Part shown: piece after piece, positions 40,896-44,999 of the stretch
How the letters are laid out: each line of letters opens with the position of its first letter
Position numbering within the stretch: the stretch's first letter is position 1
Assembly: GCA_021295815.1 (NCBI GenBank)
Contig: JAGWBQ010000018.1
Location: forward strand, 1-56,238
DNA from: Gemmatimonadota bacterium
GTDB lineage: Bacteria > Gemmatimonadota > Gemmatimonadetes > Longimicrobiales > Gaopeijiaceae
Length of the DNA: 56,238 nt
Direction: 5' to 3'
The notes under the pieces: model-generated
What the model was told of the DNA's origin: nothing
Seen by the model: the letters and a program-made list of their open reading frames with translations, nothing else
Databases searched by the model: none
Translations under genes and position numbers: made by a program

Positions 40896-42058
40896 GGGGG
40901 TATCTCTCCCTGAGCCGGAGCGACCGGCGCGCAAGTCGTCGCATCCGGGGCGGTTCCCTCCCGGGATCGACAGTCGTTCTCCTTTACTCGGCATTGGCGG
41001 TTTCGTCGTTTGGCCCGCCCCAGGTGGCGGCCCAGGCGGTGCCCGAGCCTATCGCCGTGGCGCCATGCGAGGAGGCTTGCGGGATCACCCTGGATCTGGA
41101 GATGGAGTACGGCGACGATTCCGGACCGGGAATCCTCGACCTGGTCGGTTGGGTCAAGGGGTATCGAGATGTCTCGGGGCGGACATACATCGTCGGCGAG
41201 CCGATCGACAACGTGCTGGTGTTCGATCCGGACGGACAATTCCTTCGGCGAATCGGTAGCAGGGGCTCCGGCCCCGGTGAACTCAAGGGCGGTTCGTCGC
41301 TCGTGGTCACGGGCGACGGCGAGTTCTCGGTCCTCGACCGCGGACGCGGAGCGATCCTGAACTTTGACCACACCGGACGCCTTCGCAGCGAGGTCAGGAC
41401 GGTGGGATGGGTTCCAGAGGGAACGCGTACCTTTGCATGGGATGGACCCCGAGCGATACATGTGGCCGATCTGGGCACAACGCACGGGATCGGATTCCCC
41501 CTGCATCTTTTCAACGTCGAGACCGGCGAGCTCGAGCGCTCGTTCGGCTCGATGACGGGCGAACGCGAGTTGGGCGGCAGCCCCGGCCTTCATCCCATAG
41601 CCGTCCGCCCAGACCGCCGGATCTGGATGGTCGTGGGGTTCGAGAGGTATGAGATCGCCCTCTGGGACATGAATCGACCGCATCGGTTGCTTCGGCGCGA
41701 GGCGAGTTGGTTTCCCGAGCTGACTCGGGACGACCGGACGCACGGTGGAAAGCCACATCCCTTCATCTACGCCCTCGATCTGAACGAATCCGATTCGCTT
41801 CTTTGGGTTGCGGCAAGCGTCGCCGACGAGGAGTGGAGGGAGGCCGGCCTGTACGGCAGCGACTCCGACGGCTACTACGACGACATAGTCGAAGTCATCG
41901 ACCTGCGCACGCCCAGAGTCATCGCTAGCCAGCGCTTCGACCATAGCTACCACCTCGTCGAGGGGGGCCTTCTAGGCAGACTCGCGGTCACCGCGAACGG
42001 CTCGGTTCGATACCAGATTTTCAGGGCGCGCCTCGAGGCGGCCGACTCGGAGCGGTGA
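40889..42058 (+). CDS. Secreted six-bladed beta-propeller protein
   Basis: The 389 residues from TTG 40889 begin with basic residues (SDRRASRRIRGG) and a hydrophobic signal (STVVLLYSALAVSSFG). NHL/6-bladed-propeller repeats follow: NVLVFDPDGQFLRRIGSRGSGPGELKGGSSLVV and EFSVLDRGRGAILNFDHTGRLRSEV. The start is inferred: TTG overlaps the previous stop, and no better codon lies between it and the signal sequence. The gene probably shares a transcript with the metallopeptidase-like gene. A binding or scaffold role is likely; no catalytic motif was seen. Confidence 0.75.
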   Translation: MVGGYLSLSRSDRRASRRIRGGSLPGSTVVLLYSALAVSSFGPPQVAAQAVPEPIAVAPCEEACGITLDLEMEYGDDSGPGILDLVGWVKGYRDVSGRTYIVGEPIDNVLVFDPDGQFLRRIGSRGSGPGELKGGSSLVVTGDGEFSVLDRGRGAILNFDHTGRLRSEVRTVGWVPEGTRTFAWDGPRAIHVADLGTTHGIGFPLHLFNVETGELERSFGSMTGERELGGSPGLHPIAVRPDRRIWMVVGFERYEIALWDMNRPHRLLRREASWFPELTRDDRTHGGKPHPFIYALDLNESDSLLWVAASVADEEWREAGLYGSDSDGYYDDIVEVIDLRTPRVIASQRFDHSYHLVEGGLLGRLAVTANGSVRYQIFRARLEAADSER

Positions 42059-42285
42059 AAACCTTTTCGCGGAGCCGCTCGATCTTGTTAAACGCCTGGT
42101 CCAGGAACACGGAAGGGTTGGACGGAATTGCGAGCGGTCTTCGGGTACATGATCGGTCTTCTGGTGGCATGCCTGGAGAGATTTCCTGCTCCGACGCCGC
42201 ACCTGGTAGGGAGACGAGGGTCAGAAAGGAAGCTGCGGTAAAAACCGATCTTGAGCCATCTTTCCTCTCCTCAGGAACAACGTGG

Positions 42286-43239
42286 CTATCCCGTGCGCCG
42301 TCTCCGCGACCGTTCAGGTGTTTCCCACCATGTCCAGCCGCGGCTGATATGTCCGAAGTCGAAGCGGTCCGGGTGCAGGAATTCGGCCAGGATCTCGGCT
42401 GACTCCACCAGCCGCGGGCCGGGCCGGTTGAAGTACTGGTTTCCGTCGGTGAGGACCACGCGCCCCTCACGCACGGCGGAGAGCCGTCGCCATTCCGGCT
42501 GCGCGACGAGGGGCGCCATCTCCCGCGAGGAGCGCTCGATGTCGAAACCGCACGGCATGACCGCGATGACATCGGGATCGGTCTTGACAAGCCGCTCGAT
42601 GTCGACGTAGCCGGAGTGCTTCCCGGCTTCACCGAGCGGGTCCGTGCCGCCGGCAATTTCCACCAGTTCGGGCACCCAGTTCCCTGCCATCATCAACGGG
42701 TCCGTCCACTCGATGCAGGCGACGGTGGGGCGGGATCGGATGGCTCGCGTCCGGGTGTGAAGGTCGTCCAGCCGGCCCCGGAGCCGAGCCGCCAGGGCCT
42801 CACCGCGGGCCGGGACCCCGAGCGCGGAGGCGACGGAGCGGATATCCTTCCAGACATCACCGAGAGCCATCGGCTCCAGCGAGACGAGGACCGGGTTCGA
42901 GGTGACGAGTTCGCACACGGCGCGTTCGACGTCCTGCAGGCTGGCGGCGCATACCTCGCACTGTGTCTGGGTGACGATGACGGTCGGTGCGAGACGGTTG
43001 AGCAGGTCGGGATCGACGCGGTACACCGAGAGTCCATCGCCGACGAGCGACCGGACCTGGTCGTCGATCTCCCGGCTGCTTGCCTGCACCTGCACCTTGG
43101 ACGAGCAGCAGGAGGGGAGGCGCTCGACGCCGGGCGGGTAGTCGCATTCGTGGGACCGGCCCACGAGTTCGTCCTCGAAGCCGAGAGCGCACACGATCTC
43201 GGTTGCGCTGGCGATGAGCGAGACGACGCGGTGCGTCAT
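42286..43239 (-). CDS. Cobalamin-binding protein, BtuF-like
   Basis: The 317 residues follow the helical-backbone periplasmic-binding fold of BtuF: RVVSLIASATEIVCALGFEDELVGRSHECDYPP, IVTQTQCEVCAASLQDVE, RPTVACIEWTDPLMMAGNWVPELVEIAGG and VDIERLVKTDPDVIAVMPCG. No signal peptide is visible, so the protein may be cytoplasmic, or a different export route is used. AAGGAAG precedes the ATG within the end of the upstream membrane-protein gene. No BtuC/BtuD genes are in view. The cobalamin link fits the methylmalonyl-CoA mutase elsewhere in the window. Confidence 0.88.
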   Translation of the reverse strand: MTHRVVSLIASATEIVCALGFEDELVGRSHECDYPPGVERLPSCCSSKVQVQASSREIDDQVRSLVGDGLSVYRVDPDLLNRLAPTVIVTQTQCEVCAASLQDVERAVCELVTSNPVLVSLEPMALGDVWKDIRSVASALGVPARGEALAARLRGRLDDLHTRTRAIRSRPTVACIEWTDPLMMAGNWVPELVEIAGGTDPLGEAGKHSGYVDIERLVKTDPDVIAVMPCGFDIERSSREMAPLVAQPEWRRLSAVREGRVVLTDGNQYFNRPGPRLVESAEILAEFLHPDRFDFGHISRGWTWWETPERSRRRRTG

Positions 43240-43252
43240 CGCAATGCTTCCT

Positions 43253-43858
43253 TTACGTGTGGCTGGCGGCGAAGCCGTACTGCGGGGCGGACGTCGGCCT
43301 TGTGAGCGTGACTCGACTGAACAGGACCGGCAGGAAGACCGCCATGCTGACCAGCGTGTTCCGCAGATACGGAATCGCCATCACGTAGCACTCGACCAGG
43401 CCGGCGAAGTTGAGCGGATATATCGCGCCGCCGCCGAACGCCCACACGCCGAAGTTGCTGAGCACGAAGAACCCGAGCGACGCCCCGAGTCCTGCGCCGG
43501 CGACGCGTTTCCACGACCGCTCGCGCCGGAGGGCGAAGCCGATGAACGCCACGAGGGCGAACGAAAGATAGATCACCGGCTGGTGCGCGTAGAACGCCCA
43601 GTCGGAGCGTCCGGTGAGCGCCCAGATACCCAGGTCGCCCAGCAGCCAGGCCGCGAACGGGACCAGGTACGCCATCCGGGCTCGCGCGAAAATGGCGCCG
43701 CCGAACAGGCAGATCGGCAGGAACGGCGATAAGTTCCAGGGATAGGTCGTGCTGCCGGGTTCGAGCGCCATTCCGAACTGCGCCAGCACATAAGGAATCA
43801 GCCGTGCCGCGACGCTCACGGCGAGCAGTGCGAGGATGACGAAGAGCCGAGGTTTCAC
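43253..43858 (-). CDS. Small integral membrane protein, DUF6580-like, possible transporter subunit
   Basis: The 201 residues contain five or six hydrophobic segments (RLFVILALLAVSVAARLIPYVLA, FLPICLFGGAIFA, YLVPFAAWLLGDLGIWAL, ASLGFFVLSNFGVWAFGGG, NTLVSMAVFLPVLF). The pattern, including SNFGVWAFGGGAIYPLNFAGL, resembles the DUF6580 putative transport family and, loosely, the S component of ECF vitamin transporters. The start is GTG at 43858, with GGAAGG eight bases upstream. It is cotranscribed with the BtuF-like gene, so vitamin B12 or a precursor is a reasonable guess for its substrate. The family assignment is from memory of the sequence pattern. Confidence 0.75.
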   Translation of the reverse strand: MKPRLFVILALLAVSVAARLIPYVLAQFGMALEPGSTTYPWNLSPFLPICLFGGAIFARARMAYLVPFAAWLLGDLGIWALTGRSDWAFYAHQPVIYLSFALVAFIGFALRRERSWKRVAGAGLGASLGFFVLSNFGVWAFGGGAIYPLNFAGLVECYVMAIPYLRNTLVSMAVFLPVLFSRVTLTRPTSAPQYGFAASHT

Positions 43859-43883
43859 GTCGCAACCTTCCGTGTTCATGGTT

Positions 43884-44019
43884 TGGCGGAAATCGGGCTG
43901 CGAGATTTGAACCCGCGCCCAGCCGGAGGAAGTCGATTCAGTCCGAAGCCTCGCAATCGGCCGGACCACCCTCTCTGATAAAGATAAAGAACCGCAGCCC
44001 CATGAGGACATCGACTTCC
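43884..44019 (-). other. Structured, tRNA-like RNA candidate
   Basis: On the minus strand this stretch contains a textbook T arm, GCGGG-TTCAAAT-CTCGC at about 43902-43918, and ends in GATTTCC-G-CCA (43894-43884). The GATTTCC strand can pair with GGAAGTC at 44019-44013, and CGCAGCCC (43902-43895) with GGGCTGCG (44000-43993). The distance from end to end is 136 nt, too long for a tRNA. GGAAGTCGAT can alternatively pair perfectly with ATCGACTTCC (43937-43928). It lies in the leader of the membrane protein/BtuF-like pair. It could be a tRNA remnant, a tRNA-mimic leader or a new RNA element. Confidence 0.4.
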
Positions 44020-44039
44020 CGATCACGTCGTCCGGGGGA

Positions 44040-44999
44040 TCAGAAGATCGAGACGTCGATGTACTTCTTCGGATTCTCCCTGAAGTCCGCCAGCAGCTCG
44101 GTGACGGATACCAGGGTTGCGTTGGCGTTGTCGTAGAGCTCGGGGTCGTTTACCAGCATCCCTAGGGTCCCCTCCCCCGAGTCGATCTTTTCGAGGATCG
44201 AGCGGAGCACCGACAACGTACCGTCGATGGAAGCGACGGCCTCGTCGAGAGTGGCGATGGCCGTGTCCGCCTGGGCCAGGACGCTCTCGATCCCCGGCGT
44301 TACCGCGCTGCCGATGGCGGCGGCCGAATCGGCGGCGGCCTGAACCGAGGCCGCCATCGCGGCAATCACGGAGCTCGTGGTCTCGAAAGACTCGCCGGTC
44401 GCGGTCAGGAAGGTCTCGAATTCGCGAACGCCCGACTGGACCGAGGCCACCGTCCCGGTGTCGAGCATGGCGTTCATGCGATCCAAGAAATCGGTCGCGT
44501 TGTCGGCCATGTCCTCGACCGAACCCAGGATGCCTCCGTCGCCCCCTTCCACTACGGGCAGCAGGTCTCCATCCTCATGGGTTCCCGGACCGGGGCCGGG
44601 CAGTACGAGGATGGTGCGGCCACCGAAGAGTTCGGGGCTCCCGAGCTCGACCTGTGACCCCACCGGAATCGGCCAGCGACGCTCGACCTCCAGGTTGACG
44701 TGCACCAGTCCGTCCTCGCGGAGGTTGAACGAATGCACTCTCCCGACATTCACTCCCCGCATCAGCACCGGATCCCCGCGCCTGACGCCCCCGGCGTCTT
44801 CGATCAGGGTGTAGAGGGTGTGGCGCCCGCGGAAGGTGGCGGGTTCGGTCATGGTGAACAGGACCGTCAGAGTGGCGACGGTTCCGAGGATGACGAAGAT
44901 GCCCACGACGGCCAGGCTGGCCTTTCTGGGAGGTGGAAGATGATCGCTTACCTGCGGGTCGTGATCGGTTCTTCGTCCTGTGGCGTTCGTATTGGTCAT
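44040..44999 (-). CDS. MCE-family lipid transport protein MlaD-like
   Basis: Periplasmic substrate-binding subunit of an Mla-type ABC lipid transporter, 319 residues. A single N-terminal transmembrane helix (KASLAVVGIFVILGTVATLTVLFTM) is followed by one MCE domain (about 52-135), with TLYTLIEDAGGVRRGDPVLMRGVNVGRV and GSQVELGSPELFGGRTILVLPG. A long helical coiled C-terminal region (about 160-300) with a LGMLVNDPELYDNANATL segment comes next. The start is ATG at 44999, overlapping the ATPase gene stop as ATGA. It probably forms a hexameric ring on MlaE. Confidence 0.93.
   Translation of the reverse strand: MTNTNATGRRTDHDPQVSDHLPPPRKASLAVVGIFVILGTVATLTVLFTMTEPATFRGRHTLYTLIEDAGGVRRGDPVLMRGVNVGRVHSFNLREDGLVHVNLEVERRWPIPVGSQVELGSPELFGGRTILVLPGPGPGTHEDGDLLPVVEGGDGGILGSVEDMADNATDFLDRMNAMLDTGTVASVQSGVREFETFLTATGESFETTSSVIAAMAASVQAAADSAAAIGSAVTPGIESVLAQADTAIATLDEAVASIDGTLSVLRSILEKIDSGEGTLGMLVNDPELYDNANATLVSVTELLADFRENPKKYIDVSIF

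Follow-up and report, generated by a model that had tools for sequence, protein, structure and literature searches.

A probable truncated tRNA-Pro(GGG) gene at the edge of an apparently acquired cobalamin-linked segment in a Gemmatimonadota bacterium

Background

Genomic islands that enter tRNA genes in a site-specific manner leave a tRNA 3' end at one edge of the acquired DNA, and are distinguished by an integrase and by a direct repeat at the other edge. A tRNA 3' end also stands at the edge of a small gene block in the window studied here (the whole 56,238-nt stretch of contig JAGWBQ010000018.1, from a member of the Gaopeijiaceae), where the other edge is instead a truncated protein gene and where neither an integrase nor a flanking direct repeat was found. 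The closest relative of the site is a locus in g80, a genus in another family of the same class, in which a complete tRNA-Pro(GGG) gene precedes a gene for a DUF6580 membrane protein. A further homologous arrangement, in a genome of the window's own family (G010, genus g11), is led by a cobalamin riboswitch. No paper on DUF6580 turned up in the collection of literature searched.

The original prediction for this site envisaged a 136-nt RNA with a tRNA-like end and mutually exclusive pairings, upstream of a cobalamin-linked gene pair, and read it as a tRNA-mimicking regulator or a decayed tRNA. All its elements lie on the minus strand, from 44019 to 43884, in the interval from mlaD (ending at 44040) to the DUF6580 gene (GTG start at 43858). 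The features of the region, as delineated by our analysis, are as follows.

44040..44999, minus strand: mlaD, the neighbour across the junction (Pfam PF02470)
43921..44039, minus strand: intergenic DNA after mlaD, 119 nt, not tRNA-derived by the tests run; holds the 5' partners of the proposed alternative helices
43893..43920, minus strand: 3' fragment of a tRNA-Pro(GGG) gene, with the T-arm (43916..43900), the acceptor 3' strand and the discriminator A at 43893
43859..43892, minus strand: 34-nt spacer between the tRNA fragment and the DUF6580 gene, containing 'GCCA'
43253..43858, minus strand: DUF6580 membrane protein gene, start GTG (VKPRLF...; Pfam PF20221, E 2.2e-42)
42286..43239, minus strand: BtuF-like periplasmic binding protein gene (Pfam PF01497, E 1.5e-22)
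42171..42259, minus strand: truncated 5' end (signal-peptide region) of a gene that we take from its sequence to be amidohydrolase-like, delimited by the junction alignment with the g80 genome G105

Results

A genuine T-arm among pairings of chance frequency

The perfect T-arm is present as described: GCGGG-TTCAAAT-CTCGC is read from 43916 to 43900 on the minus strand, and the T-arm pattern has two matches in the window, namely this one and a real tRNA-Leu, against a chance expectation of 0.18 per window. The helices GGAAGTC/GATTTCC, GGGCTGCG/CGCAGCCC and GGAAGTCGAT/ATCGACTTCC, like the GGGC/GCCC extension of the T stem, can indeed be traced in the letters, but pairings of these kinds are no more frequent than chance would provide. 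Thus, the window contains 19 perfect 10-bp inverted repeats within 140 nt, where 21 are expected from simulated sequence, and 295 8-bp inverted repeats, where 295 are expected (about 0.7 per 136 nt). Folding of the stretch gave z = -1.77 on the minus strand, with 9 of 200 shuffles folding equally well, and z = -0.74 on the plus strand.

A full cloverleaf was recognized at the site neither by ARAGORN, which called no tRNA, nor by Rfam, whose best tRNA score there was 14.5 bits against a cut-off of 29; the Rfam search that had been proposed as a check on the prediction returned no match at gathering cut-offs. Upstream of the window's T-arm no GGG anticodon is preserved in a 7-nt loop on a paired stem. 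The tmRNA and tRNA-Sec models of Rfam were likewise unmatched at the site, those for the cobalamin riboswitch and the T-box gave nothing there up to E = 10, and matches in phage and plasmid collections were no better than chance. The tRNA-Sec reading is ruled out by this lack of a match together with a normal selC on contig C21 of the host genome, and the tmRNA reading by the host's own tmRNA on contig C6.

An intact homologue upstream of DUF6580 in another family

A BLAST search with the 136 nt against 57 relatives of the same family and order recovered no match outside the host genome. When the search was extended to the phylum (395 genomes), four strong matches emerged (E 4.8e-11 to 4.8e-8), all of them in g80 (G105, G109, G281 and G198; the genomes compared are draft assemblies). 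All four g80 genomes carry an intact tRNA-Pro(GGG) gene directly upstream of DUF6580, as detected by ARAGORN and by Rfam at 63 bits. G281 has in addition a second copy of this tRNA gene on another contig (G281:C117:1821-1895), 100% identical over the 75 nt searched.

The window fragment is homologous to, and collinear with, the intact g80 copy, 24 of 29 aligned columns being identical. G105 reads ...CGCGAGTTCAAATCTCGCCGCCCCGA-TTTTCGCCAAACCACGAACACGAAGG...GTGAAACCTCGG, and the window, aligned to it, ...CGCGGGTTCAAATCTCGCAGCCCGA-TTTCCGCCAAACCATGAACACGGAAGG...GTGAAACCTCGG, with the spacer and the next gene common to both. Since this alignment runs across the tRNA end and the spacer alike, the supposed discriminator-plus-CCA end proves to be a misreading: the tRNA of the intact homologue ends in ...CCCCGA, and TTTTCGCCAAACC, with its GCCA, belongs to the downstream spacer. 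The two loci therefore resemble each other in the T-arm, acceptor 3' strand, discriminator, spacer and downstream genes, but differ in that the g80 tRNA is complete, whereas the window retains 28 nt, in which the acceptor 3' strand has lost one base.

An abrupt end of homology at the T-arm

Between 43920 and about 42178 the window and g80 are 84-87% identical in DNA without interruption, a block of about 1.75 kb that comprises the tRNA 3' end, the 34-nt spacer, the DUF6580 gene, the BtuF-like gene and the first 29 or so codons of the truncated amidohydrolase; in G105 the latter gene is present at full length behind btuF (L108 2604..4175). The T-arm, acceptor and discriminator are 83% identical to g80 and the spacer 77-83%. 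At 43920 identity drops sharply: the 46 nt upstream match the 5' part of the tRNA at 54%, where random 46-mers of the window have a median of 50% and a 95th percentile of 57%, and an anchored alignment of the 5' part is equalled by 30 of 200 shuffles. By these tests, 43921..44039 resembles the tRNA-Pro 5' part no more than shuffles or random 46-mers do. These alignments establish the homology, the common gene order and the fall in identity at 43920. Because the T-arm, the acceptor and even the untranslated spacer were kept at 77-83% while the 5' part is at chance, the tRNA appears to have been broken off at the T-arm and not to have decayed uniformly. A highly degenerate 5' half, disrupted by indels, might conceivably persist there, 54% being slightly above the random median.

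tRNA genes of the host genome

In the host genome (G000) 44 tRNA genes and tRNA-Sec were found, with intact genes for nearly all tRNAs, including an intact tRNA-Pro(GGG) elsewhere (contig C23:8238). For glutamine only tRNA-Gln(CTG) was detected; tRNA-Gln(TTG) was not found, and an assembly gap may hide its gene (96% complete, 35 contigs). The idea that this gene is hidden in the stretch received no support. Several other origins were also rejected. Among the host's own tRNAs, tRNA-Asp gave the top local score, but 4 of 100 shuffles reached it, and tRNA-Pro(GGG) explains the place. A remnant of a tRNA native to the vicinity of mlaD is contradicted by the absence of any tRNA next to mlaD in 29 relatives. 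A match (E 0.001) between the upstream part and contig C11 of the same genome falls within a peptidase-like gene and was judged spurious.

Phyletic affinities of the block and its neighbours

The proteins of the block are nearer to g80 than to the window's own family: DUF6580 is 86-91% identical to its g80 counterparts as against 67% to that of G010, and the BtuF-like protein 85-89% as against 78%. The neighbouring MlaF shows the reverse order, 50-51% to g80 and 60% to G010, as expected under vertical descent. In the DUF6580 tree the window groups with g80 with support of 97/96. From these opposite affinities it follows that the block was apparently acquired horizontally, from another bacterial family; its truncation at both ends in the window would point to a g80-like donor as the source.

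The gene that mlaD meets at its 3' end is, in most of the family relatives inspected, a convergent PD40-type gene, and in the window the block sits between these two. The same interval holds a gene for a 6-bladed beta-propeller (Pfam DUF5128; 40896-42177), unmatched in the g80 loci. None of the genes identified in the 3.1 kb that separate mlaD from the PD40-type gene is an integrase, no insertion sequence that would account for the cut was found, and a search for direct repeats of the tRNA fragment, both around 42178 and in the rest of the window, yielded nothing beyond 10-15-mers. A site-specific island, as recognized by an integrase and a direct repeat at the other edge, is thus not shown here.

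The cobalamin connection

The description of the two downstream genes as a cobalamin-linked pair is borne out by G010, where DUF6580 and btuF follow a TonB receptor gene behind a cobalamin riboswitch (cluster L066, G010:C61: RF00174 at 72 bits, TonB receptor, DUF6580, BtuF-like). This gene neighbourhood suggests that DUF6580 takes part in the uptake of cobalamin (or cobalt). RF00174, which precedes the homologous cluster in G010, is unmatched at the window site; the only cobalamin riboswitch found in the host genome is on contig C12.

Discussion

The site is very probably the truncated 3' end of an ordinary tRNA-Pro(GGG) gene, lying at the ragged upstream limit of a segment that was acquired horizontally. 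A donor-like arrangement as in g80, with an intact tRNA-Pro(GGG) followed by DUF6580, the BtuF-like gene and the amidohydrolase-like gene, would have been severed, presumably by recombination, at two points: within the tRNA gene, at its T-arm, and close to codon 29 of the amidohydrolase. In the lineage of the window, the resulting segment would then have been inserted between mlaD and the PD40-type gene. As the anticodon, the D-arm and the acceptor 5' strand are missing and the host has an intact tRNA-Pro(GGG), the 28-nt 3' end would be a passenger without function. It adjoins the 119 intergenic nucleotides that follow mlaD.

The decayed-tRNA option of the original prediction was correct to the extent that 43893..43920 is a tRNA-Pro(GGG) 3' end, but the evidence favours truncation over gradual decay. 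In a scenario of decay in place, a whole tRNA-Pro(GGG) would have been acquired and its redundant 5' two thirds subsequently lost through point changes and indels; MAFFT can, by inserting gaps, align the whole tRNA to the window, and the second, intact copy in the host would have made the acquired one dispensable. Such a history is nonetheless unlikely, as a single mutation rate cannot yield both a well-preserved spacer and T-arm and a 5' part at chance level, and as shuffled sequences so often match the anchored alignment. That the tRNA resemblance is wholly coincidental deserves practically no credence: the T-arm motif alone might be attributed to chance, given its expectation per window, but in four genomes the homologous T-arm, located likewise ahead of DUF6580, belongs to an intact tRNA, and the g80 loci refute this reading.

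A tRNA-mimicking regulatory RNA whose exclusive folds control the DUF6580-btuF pair can be drawn on paper, and gains some appeal from the link of these genes to cobalamin and from the riboswitch before the G010 cluster. We nevertheless consider it extremely improbable. The 5' partners of its helices lie outside the homologous segment, the helices and the folding score are of the order expected by chance, and the homologous leaders are devoid of them, holding a plain tRNA gene in g80 or having a riboswitch-led TonB receptor gene upstream in G010. Moreover, the 136-nt unit as such is without a homologue in the 395 genomes, so that the covariation suggested as its test had nothing to count. It is very unlikely, if slightly less so, that the junction of the T-arm with host intergenic DNA has become a new, lineage-specific structured leader affecting expression of the acquired genes. 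The truncated tRNA-Pro(GGG) gene thus remains by far the best account of the site.

Conclusion

These results remove a false candidate for a tRNA-mimic riboregulator. They also document a small cobalamin-linked block, DUF6580 with a BtuF-like gene, as apparently moving between bacterial families, and occurring in two settings: behind tRNA-Pro(GGG) in one genus, and within a TonB receptor cluster led by a riboswitch in a second.
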